Positions 1,320 to 32,243 of a stretch of DNA of 64,000 nucleotides are shown here, in pieces. The stretch comes from Oceanimonas sp. GK1. Lineage in GTDB: Bacteria > Pseudomonadota > Gammaproteobacteria > Enterobacterales > Aeromonadaceae. The DNA lies in NCBI RefSeq assembly GCF_000243075.1, contig NC_016745.1, positions 62,001 through 126,000 of the forward strand, in the 5' to 3' direction. The notes under the pieces are model-generated. The model saw only the letters and a program-made list of their open reading frames with translations, had not been told where the DNA came from and searched no databases. Position 1 is the first letter of the stretch; every line of letters starts with the position of its first letter. The position numbers and the translations under genes are program-made.

Positions 1320-2873
1320 TCAGCGCTTGAGCCGCAGCACCAGATCGTGCAGCTCGGTGGCCACCGACTGTAATGCTACCAGGCTGCTGGCGGCGGCGTC
1401 CGACTGGGCCAGCCCCGTGTCCGACAGCCTGGCCATGTGCACCGCCTGCCGGTTGATGTCTTCCGCCACCCGGGCCTGCTGCTCCACCGCCGAGGCCATC
1501 TGCAGCGACATATCAGCAATGCGGGACACCGCCGAGACAATACTGCTCAGGGTATGTTCGGTTTCCAGCACTCGGGCTAGCCCCGACTCGGCGCTGATTT
1601 TGCCCTGTTCGGCCACGTCCACCGAGGCGCCGGCACCAGCGGTCAGCTCCGCCACAATATGATGAATTTCCCTGGTCGACGCCCGGGTCCGCGCCGCCAG
1701 CTGGCGTACCTCGTCGGCCACCACCGCAAAGCCCCGCCCCTGCTCGCCAGCCCGGGCCGCCTCAATGGCGGCGTTGAGCGCCAGCAGGTTGGTCTGCTCC
1801 GACAGGCTTTCAATCATGCCCGCCACCCGGGCAATGCCGGCGGTCTGCTGCGCCAGCCGCTGCACCTCGCCGCTGATGTTGTCGACGGTGGTTTTCAGCC
1901 CGGCAATGGCCTCCCGGGTCACCCCGGCCACCTCCAGCCCCTGGCGGGCCATGCGGCTGGCGCTGTCGGCCTGGCTGGCGGTTTCCTGCACATGGGCGGT
2001 CACGTCGTTGATGGTGGCGGTCATCTCGTTCATGGCGGTGGCCACCTGTTCGGTTTCCTGACGCAGGCTGGCCATGCCGTCCCGGGCCTGACGGGACTGC
2101 ACATGGCCATGGTCGGAGCGGTGGCTGACCTGGCCGGCGGCGTCTTCAATGCGGGTAATTATGGCCATCAAGCGGGCCTGTTCGCTGCGAATACCCACCT
2201 TCAGCCGGCCCGGCATGCCCTGCTCCCGGCTGTGAGTGTGCATGGCAAGCTGGTGGCGAAAGGCGCCCCCCAGCAGCTCGTCCAGCCGCTGCAGGGTCTG
2301 GCGATGCAGATGGCTCACCCAGCCGCCAAAGGCCGCCAGTGACAACAGTTCCAGCGTCATGGCTGCATGAATGTATTCGGCCAGAAACAGGCCGGCGGCC
2401 ACCCCCTGACTCGCCCCCAGCCACACCCAGGGATTGCCGAGCCAGTTTGGCCGTGGCAGGCGTTTGCCCGCCTGCAGCCGAGCATAGAGCCGCTCGGCCC
2501 GGGCCACGTCGTCCCGCTCCGGGCAGGCCCGCACCGACTCAAAGCCCACCAGGGCGCCATCTTCGGTAATGGGAGAGACATAGGCATCCACCCAGTAATA
2601 GTCGCCATTCTTGCAGCGGTTTTTTACCAGTCCCATCCAGGGCTTGCCCGCCTTGAGGTGGTCCCACATCACCTTGAACGCGGCCGCCGGCATGTCGGGA
2701 TGGCGCACGATGTTATGGGGCTGACCCACCAGCTCTGCCCGGCTGTAACCGCTGACGTTCACAAAGGCGTCGTTGCAGTGAAGAATCTTGCCGTCCATAT
2801 CCGTGGTGGACACCAGCCGTTCATTGGCATCAAAGGTGCGTTCATTGCCGGTAACGGGAAGGTTTTTTCGCAT
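1320..2873 (-). CDS. aer: Aer-like PAS/methyl-accepting chemotaxis (aerotaxis) receptor
   Basis: 517 residues. Residues about 15-115 form a PAS domain closely resembling the FAD-binding PAS of E. coli Aer, including [16 protein letters not shown] and the [13 protein letters not shown] loop. A hydrophobic hairpin follows at about 148-190 and serves as membrane anchor; there is no periplasmic sensor domain. The C-terminal half is a chemoreceptor signalling domain with the highly conserved hairpin tip [17 protein letters not shown]. The protein should sense redox or oxygen through flavin and signal to CheA/CheW. The reading frame extends further upstream, but MRKNLPV at 2873 is chosen because Aer homologues begin just before the PAS domain. 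No che genes are nearby. Confidence 0.88.
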
Positions 2874-3209
2874 GCCATATCCTTGCTCAACTGCAGGTAC
2901 TCGCCGCCCGGGCGAACCCGCGTGAATAATAAGGAATAACGACGCCCGCCGCGCTTTTCCTGACCCGAATATCATTTTTATGTGCCGGGACTTAAATAAA
3001 ACACCCAAACGCGCCCTATCCCGCGCGGCAACTCCCTGACTATTTCTTTCTTATTTGAACTCGAACACTTAAGTCCCGCCGCCCAAGTGTCATACAATGG
3101 GCGCCGGAAATTCCGCGCAGCGGTTCCTGTCGAGCGCCAGTACCGAATACCCTCTGGTACCAGGCCCGGCCGCTGCTCCCCCAACATCAACCTGGGAAAT
3201 AGGGAAATA
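2874..3209. other. Intergenic region between aer and icd
   Basis: About 336 bases between two divergent genes. It must hold both promoters. The only clear structure is a perfect 10-bp inverted repeat, cgggacttaa at 2986-2995 and its complement at 3069-3078, about 73 bp apart. No confident -35/-10 pair, terminator or small gene was seen. Open frames crossing the region lack coding features. Confidence 0.5.
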
Positions 3210-5441
3210 ATGACCAACAAAACATCGACCATCGTCTATACCCTGACCGACGAAGCCCCCGCACTGGCCACCTACTCCTTGCTGCCCATCATTCGCACCT
3301 TTACCGACGCCGCCGGCATTGATGTCACCCTGAGCGACATTTCTCTGGCCGGCCGCGTTCTGGCCGCCTTTCCGGAGCGCCTGACCGACGAGCAACGGGT
3401 TGCCGACGGTCTGGCCGAACTGGGCAAGCTGACGCAGGATCCCCACGCCAACATCATCAAGCTGCCCAACATCAGTGCCTCCGTGCCGCAGCTGCGCGCC
3501 TGCATCAAGGAGCTGCAATCCCAGGGTTATAACGTGCCCGATTTCCCGGAAGAGCCGAAAACCGACGAAGACAAGGCCATTCGCGAAGCCTATTCCAAAA
3601 TCCTCGGCAGCGCCGTGAACCCGGTACTGCGCCAGGGCAACTCCGACCGTCGCGCTCCCGCCGCGGTCAAGGCCTTTGCCCGTAAATACCCCCACTCCAT
3701 GGGTGCCTGGAGCAAGGCGTCGCGCTCCCACGCCGACTACATGAACGGCGGTGATTTCTTCTCCAGCGAGCAGTCCGTGACCATGGACAAGGCGCAAACC
3801 GTGCGCATCGAGTTCATCGGCCAGGACGGCAAACCCCAGCTGAAGAAAGAGCTGGCGCTGCAGGCCGGCGAAGTGCTGGACAGCATGTTCATGAGCGCCA
3901 AGGCGCTGGAAGCCTTCTTTGAGCAGACCCTGCAGGACTGCAAGGATGCCGGCGTGATGTGGTCCCTGCACGTCAAGGCCACCATGATGAAGGTGTCTCA
4001 CCCCATCGTGTTCGGCCATGCGGTCAAGGTGTTCTACAAGGAAGTGTTCGACAAGTACGGCAAGTTGTTTGAAGAGCTGGGCGTCAACCCCAACAACGGC
4101 ATGAGCAGCGTACTGGAGAAGATCAAGACCCTGCCCCAGTCTACCCAGGAAGAAATCGAGCAGGCCATTCACGACTGCTACGAGCATCGTCCGGAAATGG
4201 CCATGGTCGACTCGGTCAAGGGCATTACCAACCTGCACGTGCCGAGCGACGTGATCGTGGACGCCTCCATGCCGGCCATGATCCGCAACTCCGGCCAGAT
4301 GTGGGGTCGCGACGGCAAGCTGAAGGACACCAAGGCGGTCATGCCCGAGTCCACCTATGCCCGCATCTACCAGGAAGTGATCAACTTCTGCAAAACCAAC
4401 GGCGCTTTCGACCCGCGCACCATGGGCTCGGTATCCAACGTGGGCCTGATGGCGATGAAGGCCGAGGAATACGGCTCCCACGACAAGACCTTTGAAATGA
4501 CCGAAAACGGCACCATGCGCGTGGTGAACGAAGCCGGTGAGGTGCTGATGCAGCACGAGGTGGAAAAAGGCGACATCTGGCGTGCCTGCCAGACCAAGGA
4601 CGCGGCCATTCGCGACTGGGTCAAGCTGGCGGTGAACCGCGCCCGCAACTCCGCCACCCCGGCGGTGTTCTGGCTGGACGACGAGCGTGCCCACGACAAC
4701 GAGCTGCGCAAGAAGGTGAACACCTACCTGCAGGAGCACGATCTGACCGGTCTGGACATTCATATCATGTCCTACAACGAGGCCATCCGCTTCTCCATGG
4801 AGCGCATGAAGCGCGGCAAGGACACCATCTCGGTGACCGGCAACGTGCTGCGTGACTACCTCACCGATCTGTTCCCCATCATGGAACTGGGCACCTCCGC
4901 CAAGATGCTGTCCATCGTGCCCATGCTGGCCGGTGGCGGCATGTACGAGACCGGTGCCGGCGGCTCTGCGCCCAAGCACGTGCAGCAGCTGATGGAAGAA
5001 AACCACCTGCGCTGGGACTCCCTGGGTGAGTTCCTGGCCCTGGCGGTCTCCCTGGAAGAGCTGGGCATCAAGGAAGGCAACGACCGCGCCAAGCTGCTGG
5101 CCAAGTGCCTGGACAAGGCCACCGAGCTGCTGCTGGACAACGGCAAGTCGCCGTCCCGCCGCGCCGGTGAGCTGGACAACCGGGGCAGCCACTTCTACCT
5201 GGCCCTGTACTGGGCCCAGGAGCTGGCGGCGCAAACCGAAGACGAGGCGCTGGCCGCCCATTTCGCGCCCCTGGCCAAGGCCCTGGCCGACAACGAAGCC
5301 AAGATTGTGGCAGAGCTGAACGCGGTGCAGGGCAAGTCTGCCGGCGTACACGGCTACTACCACGCCAGCCCCGCCGAGCTGGAACAGGTGATGCGTCCCA
5401 GCGCCACCCTGAACCAAACTCTGGCCCAGCTGAACGGCTAA
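3210..5441 (+). CDS. icd: Monomeric NADP-dependent isocitrate dehydrogenase
   Basis: 743 residues, the usual size of the monomeric NADP-IDH family (about 740), which converts isocitrate to 2-oxoglutarate in the TCA cycle and supplies NADPH. Family landmarks read along the chain include [15 protein letters not shown] near the N-terminus, [38 protein letters not shown], the [13 protein letters not shown] segment, and [20 protein letters not shown]. It starts at ATG 3210, where [17 protein letters not shown] matches the family N-terminus; the frame is open further 5' but that part is not coding. A strong terminator follows. It appears to be a single-gene unit. Confidence 0.96.
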
Positions 5442-27777: not shown

Positions 27778-28203
27778 GTGAATGAGTTTCTGCAACTATT
27801 CGACAACCCGGCGCTGATCTGGACCCTGGGCCTTGCCAGCCTGGTGAGCTTTATCGGCTCCCTGATCATTATTCCCTGGCTGGTGGTGCGCATTCCGGTG
27901 AATTACTTTTCCGGTGAATACCGCCACCGGGTGCCCTGGGCCAAACAGCATCCGCTGATCCGCTGGCTGCTGCTGATCCTGAAAAACCTGCTGGGGCTGG
28001 TGTTTCTGCTGGTGGGCATTGCCATGCTGGTGCTGCCCGGTCAGGGATTGCTGACCATACTGATCGCCCTGGTGCTGCTGAATTTTCCCGGCAAATACCA
28101 ACTGGAACGCCGGCTGTTCAGGATGCCCTCGGTACGCAATGGCGTGAACTGGCTGCGCAAACGGGCCGGGCGGGAGCCGCTGAGGTTTGATGGTGAGGGG
28201 TAA
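27778..28203 (+). CDS. PGPGW-type small transmembrane protein
   Basis: 141 residues with two or three helices (about 15-38 and 60-105). The sequence LLVGIAMLVLPGQGLLTILIALVLLNFPGK carries the loop pattern of the putative transmembrane PGPGW family (here LPGQG), which has no known function. It starts with GTG at 27778; the nearest ATG is out of frame. It stands alone between the SSS transporter and the AT-rich island, and its last bases carry a gtgaggggtaa repeat unit. The insertion point of the island is just downstream of its stop. Confidence 0.75.
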   Translation: MNEFLQLFDNPALIWTLGLASLVSFIGSLIIIPWLVVRIPVNYFSGEYRHRVPWAKQHPLIRWLLLILKNLLGLVFLLVGIAMLVLPGQGLLTILIALVLLNFPGKYQLERRLFRMPSVRNGVNWLRKRAGREPLRFDGEG

Positions 28204-28416
28204 AGAGCCACCCGTTTGTGTATCAGAAACCTTTAAACACTCGCAAAAGTCGCAGTCAGCATTGCTTTTTGCTTCTCGACTACAGACAATAAGCGCCATA
28301 CGAAACAAACCTTAAATTTAATCCGAGCAGTGTCGAATTGTCGACTAGTTTATTTTCTCGTTTCAACTCATATTTAGTCATTTAACTACACCTAAAACAT
28401 AAAAAGGTTAATGCTA

Positions 28417-30387
28417 ATGTATATTAAAAAAATAGCAATAAAAAACCTTGGGCCTATAAGTGAGCTCAACATCACACCTCGCTTCAACGACCAAGGCGAT
28501 TCAATACCAATTATTCTTGTCGGACAAAACGGAGCAGGAAAGTCTTTGACGCTGGCAACAATACTTGATGCCATGACAGAATCAAGAAAGAAGCATTTCA
28601 GAGAGTTAGAAGAGGTTGGGGAAACAGAATATATAAGAGTATCTTCAAAAAAATACATTAGAAAAAACAGTGGCTTTAGCTATGTTTATGCAGAAATATC
28701 AAATAGCTTGGCTGAGCTTAAGTTTCATGAGGTAGTGTCAAGATTACCCAATGAAGATTTTAAACAAATTGCAGGACAAATAAACGACATCCCCAACCTT
28801 TACAATGAAGAGTTCTCAAGATCTGGATTTTACAAAAATGCGGTCACCTCTGGTGCATACCAAGAAGAACTAAGCAAACTATCATTCCTGTACTTCCCCT
28901 ATTTTCGGTATGAAGCTGCGTACTGGATGAATAAAAAAGCAAACATAAACCTTCTAAAAGAAGATAATTTCTACGGCCAACCAAAAATAAACACGATAAG
29001 GACAAATATTATTAATGAGACTCAAAGGTGGATATTAAACATCATTTTGGACCGAGAGGTGCACGAGAAATCAATCGGTGATTTACAACTATCAAATGGA
29101 TTAACCGTAAGGCAGTTTCAGGGATATCACGGCCCCAACACACAGCTATTAAATATGATAAATGAAATACTCACTGCTATGTTTAAGGCCAAAGATAAAA
29201 ATATTGAGTATGCTAGAGTAGGGATAGGGCGAAAGGGAAACAGAGAGATTACTGTTATTTTAAAAAATAAAAACTCAAATGATGAAGAAATAGTTGCACC
29301 AGAGTTAAGCCAGTTATCTTCAGGTGAATTGATGACATTAGGGCTGGCGACAGAGATAATAAGAGCCTACGAACTTGTTAGCGGAAATACACCCGAAAAA
29401 CTTAATGAAATAACAGGCATCGTTCTCATAGATGAGGTTGATTTACACCTCCATGTAAACTTTCAAAAAGCAGTGCTACCACTAATAATAAGAGAATTCC
29501 CCAAAGTACAATTCATAATAACAACTCATTCCCCATTATTTCTTTTGGGAATGGATGAGAGCGGGGACGTTGACATTTTCAACTTACCTCTTGGCAATAA
29601 AATTTCAGCTGAGGATTTCACTGAGTTCAAGCAAAGCCACGAAATATTCCTTAATAATAACAAAAAATTTCAAGAACGATATAACGAACTAAAGTGTGAA
29701 TTAGAAAAAGACAGCCGGCCTTTAATTATTACTGAAGGCAAAACAGATTGGCAACACATAAAGCTAGCACTAGAAACTTTGAGAGCATTAGGTGAATTCA
29801 AAGATCTTCACATTGAATTCTTAGAGTTTGACAGCAACGTTGATATGGGTGATATAAAGCTCAGCCAGATGTGTGAATACATGGCAGATTTACCACAACA
29901 AAGAAAACTAATATTTATCTTTGATAGAGATAACCCAAAAATAATCAAAAAAATGACTCAGGATGAAAAGTGTTACAAGTTCTGGGGAAACAAGGTTTAC
30001 TCTGTCTGCTTACCGACACCACCTCACAGGGTAGGATATAGCAACTTAAGCATTGAACTTTATTACAAAGATGTTGACTTGCGAACAGAAGAGCCGGAGT
30101 CAAGAAAAAGGCTATGGTTTACTAACGAAATAGAGATCATCACACTACCAACAAACGGAGAAAAAACATATAGAACTCTAAAAGAACCAAACCAAAACCA
30201 TGAATGTGATAAAAAGGTATTTGATCAACCAGCAGATAAAATAACAAATAGCAATGGTCAATATGTAGGCCTTTCAAAGTCAGCTTTTGTAGAGAAAATA
30301 GTTAAGAGAGAAGAAATATCTGAAAGCTTTGAACGGAGTGCCTTTAGATTACTCTTCCATGTAATTGCAGAGATCTGTGAAATATAG
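28417..30387 (+). CDS. OLD-like AAA/ABC-type ATPase with C-terminal TOPRIM-like nuclease region
   Basis: 656 residues. Walker A GQNGAGKS (36-43), ABC signature LSSGELM (300-306), Walker B GIVLIDEVDLHLH (334-346) and H-loop TTHSP (His371) form a complete SMC/ABC-type ATPase. Then comes a TOPRIM-like pattern: PLIITEGKTDW with Glu440 and IFIFDRDNP with Asp503/Asp505. This ATPase-plus-TOPRIM order is that of overcoming-lysogenisation-defect (OLD) nucleases, which act in phage defence alone (class 1) or with partners (GajA). The gene is strikingly AT-rich beside GC-rich neighbours and stands alone with about 200 bp of AT-rich flank on both sides, a sign of recent transfer. ATG 28417 is chosen over 28411 for its AAGG spacing. 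No helicase or reverse transcriptase partner is visible. Confidence 0.85.
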   Translation: MYIKKIAIKNLGPISELNITPRFNDQGDSIPIILVGQNGAGKSLTLATILDAMTESRKKHFRELEEVGETEYIRVSSKKYIRKNSGFSYVYAEISNSLAELKFHEVVSRLPNEDFKQIAGQINDIPNLYNEEFSRSGFYKNAVTSGAYQEELSKLSFLYFPYFRYEAAYWMNKKANINLLKEDNFYGQPKINTIRTNIINETQRWILNIILDREVHEKSIGDLQLSNGLTVRQFQGYHGPNTQLLNMINEILTAMFKAKDKNIEYARVGIGRKGNREITVILKNKNSNDEEIVAPELSQLSSGELMTLGLATEIIRAYELVSGNTPEKLNEITGIVLIDEVDLHLHVNFQKAVLPLIIREFPKVQFIITTHSPLFLLGMDESGDVDIFNLPLGNKISAEDFTEFKQSHEIFLNNNKKFQERYNELKCELEKDSRPLIITEGKTDWQHIKLALETLRALGEFKDLHIEFLEFDSNVDMGDIKLSQMCEYMADLPQQRKLIFIFDRDNPKIIKKMTQDEKCYKFWGNKVYSVCLPTPPHRVGYSNLSIELYYKDVDLRTEEPESRKRLWFTNEIEIITLPTNGEKTYRTLKEPNQNHECDKKVFDQPADKITNSNGQYVGLSKSAFVEKIVKREEISESFERSAFRLLFHVIAEICEI

Positions 30388-30410
30388 AAGTCAAAGTAAA
30401 ACAGTTAAGT

Positions 30411-30449
30411 TAATAACTAGAAAGCTATCATTTAGCTTTCTAGTTATTA
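30411..30449. repeat. Perfect 17-bp stem-loop downstream of the OLD-like gene
   Basis: Left arm 30411-30427 begins taataactagaaagc; the right arm 30433-30449 is its exact complement, with a 5-base loop. It lies 24 bases after the stop codon and probably ends transcription, although no long T run follows. It is AT-rich like the gene and so belongs to the island. Confidence 0.75.
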
Positions 30450-30653
30450 GTTAAATAAAGTTTAACAATACAAGTAATTTATATATAAATAAGATTTTTA
30501 ACTTACAAACCTGCGACACAATAGTTTCATCAAAGCGCCACTTTTATCTTACTTCAAACCACCGTCATTTCGGCGAAGCTCTTGCAGCCTCCCTATTTGG
30601 TTTGATAGACCGGCAGCGTGCTCAGCCAGGGCAAGCTGTGGGCGGTGCTCCCT

Positions 30654-32186
<1,533 letters not shown>

Positions 32187-32187
32187 G

Positions 32188-32243
32188 GTTATTTTCACCA
32201 TTAAAGGGTTTTATTTACCCTAATCGAGCAGGGTAAAAAATAC
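32188..32243 (+). promoter_or_regulatory. Three NorR enhancer sites (GT-N7-AC)
   Basis: Three exact GT-N7-AC cores: 32188-32198, 32208-32218 and 32233-32243. E. coli NorR also binds three such sites upstream of norVW to form the active hexamer. The arrangement here is 43-98 bp upstream of the sigma-54 promoter. Confidence 0.85.

Follow-up and report, generated by a model that had tools for sequence, protein, structure and literature searches.

The window analysed here, 64,000 nucleotides of contig NC_016745.1 of Oceanimonas sp. GK1, contains an AT-rich island whose single convincing gene encodes a PtuA-like ABC ATPase followed, in the same chain, by a TOPRIM nuclease domain of the type found in retron Eco2 (Ec67). 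Comparison with sister genomes shows that the gene was acquired horizontally. Because of its ATPase-nuclease make-up, and because it occupies a slot in which relatives keep other anti-phage genes, we favour with moderate confidence a role in one-gene phage defence, in which the ATPase would sense infection and release a TOPRIM domain that cuts RNA, the whole having been acquired at a hotspot beside norR. The defence role is inferred from context and the substrate from kinship.

28417..30387, forward strand: ATPase-TOPRIM gene, 656 aa, 36% GC; open frame with a start conserved among homologues, aligned with 26 full-length homologues

An alternative ATG at 28411, two codons upstream, would give a gene at 28411-30387 of 658 aa; the ATG at 28417 is the one that aligns with the family start. 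The N-terminal half contains the following.

28417..29637, forward strand: PtuA-like ABC ATPase region, residues 1-407 (AAA_21/AAA_15; PADLOC PtuA; fold match 8sux)
28522..28545, forward strand: Walker A GQNGAGKS, residues 36-43 (K42 in 27/27)
29314..29334, forward strand: ABC signature LSSGELM, residues 300-306 (S301 and G303 in 27/27)
29416..29454, forward strand: Walker B and D-loop GIVLIDEVDLHLH, residues 334-346 (D339, E340, H344 and H346 in 27/27)
29527..29529, forward strand: H-loop His371 (27/27)

Conservation was counted in 27 aligned sequences, the window protein included; the alignment is without L077 and L096, which have broken frames, and the plasmid loci L067-L069, all five of which are in the set of 31 loci used for neighbour analysis. 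Pfam places this half in AAA_21/AAA_15. Its top PADLOC family, among the best 25 of 85, was PtuA (E = 1.3e-31), and the NCBIfam PtuA model scored 82.6 bits, under its equivalog cut-off of 500. Sequence matches in the PDB were to the PtuA-type ATPases of retrons Ec83 and Ec78 and of Septu first, then to AriA, with OLD represented by 6p74 only (E = 0.94). A full-length model built from the 27 aligned sequences had a mean predicted local distance difference test score (pLDDT) of 85.7 and a predicted template modelling score (pTM) of 0.63. In this model residues 1-397 matched the PtuA hexamer 8sux with Z 26.8 (316 aa, 3.3 Å) and the remaining PtuA chains with Z 21-26 (one row at 18.7), compared with 16-18 for AriA and about 15-18 for SMC and Rad50 heads. 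By sequence and predicted fold, the ATPase half is PtuA-like.

The C-terminal half carries a TOPRIM domain.

29626..30384, forward strand: Eco2-type TOPRIM nuclease domain with the preceding helix, residues 404-656 (profile, fold, PADLOC)
29734..29748, forward strand: TOPRIM EGKTD (E440, D444), aligned to Eco2 E374/D378; E440 in 25/27 (two D), D444 in 26/27 (one G)
29923..29931, forward strand: TOPRIM DxD (D503, D505), aligned to Eco2 D460/D462; D503 in 27/27, D505 in 24/27 (three E)
30049..30057, forward strand: TOPRIM SxE (S545, E547); E547 in 27/27 and aligned to Eco2 E515, position 545 variable in the family
30277..30279, forward strand: invariant Lys621, candidate catalytic lysine (27/27)

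G441 is also conserved in 27/27. Eco2 equivalents were read by counting along the PDB chain in the profile alignment; by the same count, the position that the Eco2 paper names K562 is not a lysine. Here the top PADLOC family, again among the best 25 of 85, was RT-Toprim_I-C (E = 3.5e-30 with the whole protein, 1.4e-31 with the C-terminal part alone), which comprises the reverse transcriptase (RT)-TOPRIM proteins of type I-C retrons. A TOPRIM profile made from the family matched retron Ec67 (Eco2) in the PDB at 1.8e-9, with the next molecule at 0.08; phmmer with the TOPRIM part alone found no PDB match, and the family profile was needed. Modelled alone, the domain reached a pLDDT of 91.7 and a pTM of 0.84 and matched Eco2 with Z 13.4 (198 aa, 3.6 Å) and activated Eco2 with 12.9. 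Both of the Foldseek matches at E ≤ 0.001 were Eco2. Burkholderia class 2 OLD (6nk8) followed with Z 7.6 (159 aa) and AriB with 7.0. Pfam gave no match to the C-terminal part at E up to 5, OLD-like_TOPRIM (PF20469) included, although HMMER filters drop weak matches; homologue L067 matched PF20469 at E = 0.1, under the cut-off. As judged by profile, modelled fold and conserved active site, this half is an Eco2-type TOPRIM.

An earlier note, made from the letters of the window, had described the protein as OLD-like. All of the motifs it named (36-43, 300-306, 334-346, His371, Glu440 and Asp503/Asp505) are present, and the layout of an ABC ATPase followed by TOPRIM holds, as does the view that the C-terminal part is unlike class 1 OLD, given the missing OLD-like_TOPRIM match. 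A special closeness to OLD does not: the profile search that the note proposed gave PtuA and RT-Toprim_I-C as the PADLOC families of the N-terminal and C-terminal parts, and in the structure comparison Burkholderia OLD was indeed matched but Eco2 scored higher. Nor is this an ATPase lacking TOPRIM geometry, since TOPRIM residues and fold are both present.

A solo DNA nuclease of the OLD/GajA kind, with an ATPase that senses nucleotide depletion or DNA ends and a TOPRIM that nicks phage or host DNA, would account for the fold match to 6nk8 and for the SMC and Rad50 heads among the ATPase matches. Some proteins found with the family profile also match OLD-like_TOPRIM at borderline, and double-stranded DNA (dsDNA) is cut by Gabija (PMC12405507) and by the Eco8 holocomplex (PMC12887533). 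The TOPRIM domain is, however, far nearer the RNase Eco2, by fold and as the sole PDB molecule at profile E < 0.05, and a DNA nuclease is unlikely.

The genomic position of the gene bears on its role. Of the 23 genomes of the genus, 16 have norR, that of the window among them; the 3' side of norR was read in 15, the contig of G004 ending there. Five genomes besides that of the window had defence cargo recognised by PADLOC on this side.

G020: AIPR/AbiU, 567 aa, 34% GC
G009: EcoRI-type methylase and type II restriction enzyme, 51-53% GC
G003: anti-phage dCTP deaminase, 35% GC
G006: SIR2-HerA, 47-48% GC
G022: Thoeris ThsA/ThsB, 38-40% GC

G007 is a weaker case: of four open reading frames (ORFs) scanned in a block of 38-42% GC, one was PD-DExK/NucC-like (3.7e-26, 9.5e-13). 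The site next to norR is a hotspot for defence genes, with alternative cargoes that include the window gene. The compact one-gene defence system envisaged in the earlier note is probable; the island is no mere orphan, being one of several alternative cargoes at this site. The hotspot offers a ready place for finding more compact defence genes in the genus.

The island and its surroundings are as follows.

28204..30565, no strand: AT-rich island (cargo) between the PGPGW gene and norR, about 35% GC (GC profile and sister comparison)
27778..28203, forward strand: PGPGW transmembrane gene, left hotspot flank (ORF list, profile match)
30654..32201, reverse strand: norR-like sigma-54 activator gene, right hotspot flank (ORF list, profile match)
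30411..30449, no strand: perfect 17-bp inverted repeat directly 3' of the stop codon, possible terminator
30566..30641, no strand: GC-rich remnant of 76 bp, 83% match to the 3' part of an ORF in sister G008

The GC fraction of the gene is 0.359 against 0.631 (63.1%) for the window, and when the whole 64 kb was scanned in 1977-bp windows at 100-base steps, every one below 0.50 GC overlapped the island. It is therefore the sole sub-50% stretch at the 2-kb scale, a sharp AT-rich island with a single gene, as the earlier note had it. The two flanking chromosomal genes are convergent. The left edge is sharp, with homology to G020 ending at 28203, the stop codon of PGPGW, and placed as in that note; its right edge of 30600 was not confirmed, as the AT-rich part ends near 30565 and the GC-rich remnant follows. 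The G008 ORF that the remnant matches resembles a HAD phosphatase by eye and is convergent with the PGPGW gene. Homology to G020 restarts five bases outside the stop codon of norR, at 30649. Edges of this kind would be expected if recombination in the conserved flanks exchanges the cargo, which is the probable route of acquisition. PGPGW lies beyond the cargo in G006 (16 kb away) and G007 (9 kb), and in G003 it is reduced to a 36-residue piece.

Only one other ORF of at least 80 aa starts in the island, an antisense frame of 88 aa (28392-28658) whose openness is its sole support; a 170-aa antisense frame, mostly within PGPGW, extends into it. As the earlier note had said, there is no tRNA target, ARAGORN finding no tRNA in the 64-kb window, and no visible partner between PGPGW and norR. 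Of promoter-like sites there were 7, about as many as chance predicts (7.3), and of terminator-like sites 1, fewer than the 2.3 expected. Folding of the 207-nt upstream stretch (28204-28410) was no better than that of shuffles (z -0.13).

Two other cargoes include ORFs worth recording. In G007 the block (L211:2928-9978) holds an ORF that is ParA-like by eye, the PD-DExK/NucC-like ORF and others without a PADLOC match, making it a candidate unknown defence locus. In G022 a 38% GC ORF after Thoeris (L215:4034-4900) resembles a class A beta-lactamase by eye.

The family is widespread and sporadic. Among the best 80 of 526 relatives in the genome-contig scan, at least 27 loci match across at least 454 residues, with the frame broken in two (L077 of Crocosphaera and L096 of Selenomonadaceae). 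By record title they come from Alphaproteobacteria, Bacteroidota, Clostridia, Cyanobacteria, Chloroflexota, Nitrospira and others, and the closest of the matches listed is from Aureimonas (47% identical). Three homologues are on plasmids, of Acinetobacter lwoffii, Leptolyngbya and Acetobacter. An alignment scan of viral contigs gave 51 loci, one of them full length (L151); phages or prophages may carry the gene too, because this full-length homologue sits in a viral contig. Within a few kb of the L151 copy (2552-4396) are ORFs that resemble, by eye, a DNA adenine methylase and lysis genes. Scanning viral contigs with the single protein gave no relative, and tblastn in phages found no match over more than 80% of the query.

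Closer to home, a full-length copy was found in none of the 22 other genomes of the genus, so that the same gene is not shared by all relatives, and in none of the other genomes of the 75 sampled for the taxonomic family; in both sets the shorter matches are to the ATPase core. In a phylum sample of 398 genomes, 19 had a TOPRIM match at E ≤ 1e-6 and four, counting the window genome, had a family member, defined as a full-length profile score above 300 bits (next best in the sample, 94.5); one of these, in G529, has a frame of just 416 aa without Walker A. An RT-TOPRIM from Herpetosiphon, outside this sample, scored 119.8. The profile phrog_8323 matched 367 of 369 class genomes and 14 of 14 control genomes, which is uninformative because it catches ABC ATPases in general.

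OLD-family ATPases with a non-defence role have been reported (PMC12796447), and the protein might by analogy be a housekeeping or cell-cycle ATPase like archaeal Cran1. The sporadic, low-GC character of the gene, its absence in full-length form from the other genomes of the genus, and its copies on plasmids and one viral contig make this very improbable.

The neighbours of homologues were taken from 31 loci, with ORFs called by a simple longest-ORF script and those of at least 100 aa retained. In L073 the gene stands three bases after hsdS and four bases before hsdR, in L079 it is again between hsdS and hsdR, and in L083 it is flanked by two type III ORFs, one for a methylase and one for restriction. 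A type I restriction ORF lies 90 bases upstream in L076, type IIG enzymes lie 0.25 kb downstream in L075 and 1.3 kb upstream in L089, and an AbiLi-like gene is upstream in L074. Altogether PADLOC confirmed a defence gene within 3 kb at 7 or more of the 31 loci, a minimum because only ten of the 145 neighbours were scanned singly, chosen by eye, all 145 having been included in one summary scan that names no loci. An hsdM in L078 was recognised by BLAST clustering only.

These arrangements raise the alternative that the protein is a backup effector, guarding a restriction system and firing on a phage anti-restriction protein as PARIS does with Ocr. Homologues inside type I and type III loci and near other restriction-modification genes would fit, and backup effector is the role given to TOPRIM-linked OLD-ABC ATPases in a BREX survey (PMC12839542). 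The window copy, between PGPGW and norR, has no adjoining restriction-modification gene, and 24 of the 31 homologue loci have no singly shown defence neighbour, though only part was scanned singly; for the window gene this explanation is improbable, slightly more so than a DNA nuclease. A retron that lost an adjacent RT was also considered and rejected, since inspection by eye of the ORFs listed around the 31 homologues showed no RT (no RT profile scan was made).

For the favoured reading, one-gene defence with an RNA-cutting TOPRIM, a course of events can be proposed from Eco2, PtuAB, AriB and P2 OLD. The ATPase part would oligomerise and sense infection through ATP binding or hydrolysis, with the TOPRIM domain kept inactive within the same chain until then. 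On infection TOPRIM would be released and cut RNA by a two-metal mechanism, host tRNA being the likeliest target, so that translation would stop and infection be aborted. The isolated TOPRIM of Eco2 is a toxic RNase that is strongly weakened by mutation of E374 or D378, and alanine at the aligned active-site residues abolishes defence (PMC12405507). tRNA is preferred as the target, since it is what the closest systems cut: tRNA-Tyr is cut by Septu PtuAB (PMC13096335) and by retron Eco7 (PMC11555353), tRNA-Lys by AriB (PMC12409363), and P2 OLD is reported as a tRNA cutter (PMC13261556).

Several points weigh against this reading. The substrate of a TOPRIM cannot be read from sequence. The Eco2 paper gives RNase activity and, in the sections covered, no tRNA target (PMC12405507), and what rescued phage from Eco2 proved to be a phage ORF and not tRNA (PMC11555353). 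In the solo OLD YbjD the phage phenotype does not depend on TOPRIM (PMC13261556), and the related TOPRIM of Gabija (PMC12405507) and the Eco8 holocomplex (PMC12887533) act, as noted, on dsDNA. The family TOPRIM profile also picks up L227-L229, AAA_15 proteins with borderline OLD-like_TOPRIM matches, so that Eco2-type TOPRIMs pass gradually into OLD-like ones. For the full-length model the pTM is only 0.63. Eight of the 15 norR loci (G001, G002, G010, G012, G013, G014, G016 and G017) are without recognised cargo, a call made by eye on ORF lists and GC without PADLOC. The neighbour analysis is without a control set, and its singly scanned neighbours were picked by eye.

The history of the nuclease was followed in a tree of 48 TOPRIM domains, 27 from the alignment rows and 21 from other relatives. 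RT labels in this tree rest on the YADD motif and are Pfam-confirmed for L070 and L242 only. The window TOPRIM groups with that of Aureimonas (100/94) and then with the viral-contig copy (95/94). A clade of ten (98/94) consists of nine ATPase-TOPRIMs, the window's among them, and L070, an RT-TOPRIM on a Herpetosiphon plasmid whose RT domain is nearest in the PDB to that of Eco2 (3e-58). The remaining six RT-TOPRIMs cluster apart, in a clade of their own (100/100). In the approximately unbiased (AU) test, a single clade of all seven RT-TOPRIMs was rejected (p = 0.0087), as was one of all 30 ATPase-TOPRIMs of window type (p = 0.00018); these tests followed sight of the tree, and some branches are long. 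Because retron RT-TOPRIM L070 falls within the clade of the window protein, the nuclease has probably moved between retrons and PtuA-like ATPases, for which the evidence is good, not final. TOPRIMs joined to HEPN_Toprim_N (PF18871) in L231, L234 and L235, all found with the family profile, point to a further partner for this type of nuclease.

Two relatives lie in the window's own genome. L242:1360-3117 (C1 near 2037402) is an RT-TOPRIM of 585 aa (RVT_1 5.8e-23) and the genome's only RVT_1 match at E ≤ 0.001, about 1.95 Mb from the window gene. It matched the TOPRIM profile at just 5.9e-6 in a small set, and the tree places it with the RT-TOPRIMs; its locus had no Rfam match, and it is probably a type I-C retron. 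Beside it, L242:5-1114 is an ORF resembling an integrase by eye. L241:379-2229 (C1 near 3439570) encodes an AAA_15-type ATPase with a related TOPRIM (616 aa). It is conceivable, at somewhat less than even chances, that the Eco2-type RNase TOPRIM is a mobile warhead exchanged between RT/multicopy single-stranded DNA (msDNA) sensors and PtuA-type ATPase sensors, the window gene being an ATPase-guarded, single-chain Septu-Eco2 hybrid; with an RT-guarded form and another behind a different ATPase in the genome, one cell would keep this class of nuclease under three triggers. The window gene links three systems that have mostly been studied separately, Septu, retrons and solo OLD, through one nuclease module, and is a likely case of sensor swapping.

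Among known systems, the closest to the C-terminal half is retron Eco2 of type I-C, in which the TOPRIM is likewise C-terminal, with EGKTD, DxD and the Glu of SxE aligned. Eco2 has RT and msDNA, whereas the window protein has a PtuA-like ATPase instead, flanked by PGPGW and norR; RT was not found in the protein or its locus by ORF list or profiles, and no relevant Rfam match for msr-msd was found beside the gene or at the own-genome RT-TOPRIM locus. Septu and the PtuA of retrons Ec83 and Ec78 resemble it in the ATPase region (Z 18.7-26.8, mostly above 21). PtuA partners a separate HNH nuclease, PtuB; the window gene has no adjacent PtuB and carries the C-terminal TOPRIM instead. Class 1 (solo) OLD proteins, such as P2 Old and YbjD/OldB, are alike in being encoded by an isolated gene and in having an ATPase followed by TOPRIM with acidic residues, and no RT, helicase or other partner adjoins the window gene, its neighbours being PGPGW and norR. 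Their TOPRIM differs, in that the window's C-terminal part has no OLD-like_TOPRIM match, and a plain class 1 OLD was rejected with TOPRIM nearer Eco2. PARIS (AriA/AriB, fused forms too) also joins an ABC ATPase sensor to a TOPRIM effector, of the AriB (DUF4435) type. Both halves of the window protein are closer to other families, and a merged PARIS was likewise rejected. Gabija differs in its adjacent UvrD-like helicase GajB, which is absent here. IbfA/HEC-04, of 518 aa, is a solo ATPase-TOPRIM defence protein, likened by description only (PMC12111858).

ATPase-TOPRIM defence proteins are thus a known kind, represented by the OLD classes, PARIS, Gabija and IbfA/HEC-04 (PMC10568477, PMC12839542, PMC12111858). 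Among the open-access papers listed in literature searches, none was seen to describe a fusion of PtuA-type ATPase and Eco2-type TOPRIM. The window gene offers a one-gene, 656-aa handle on the control of a nuclease by a PtuA-type ATPase without PtuB or msDNA.

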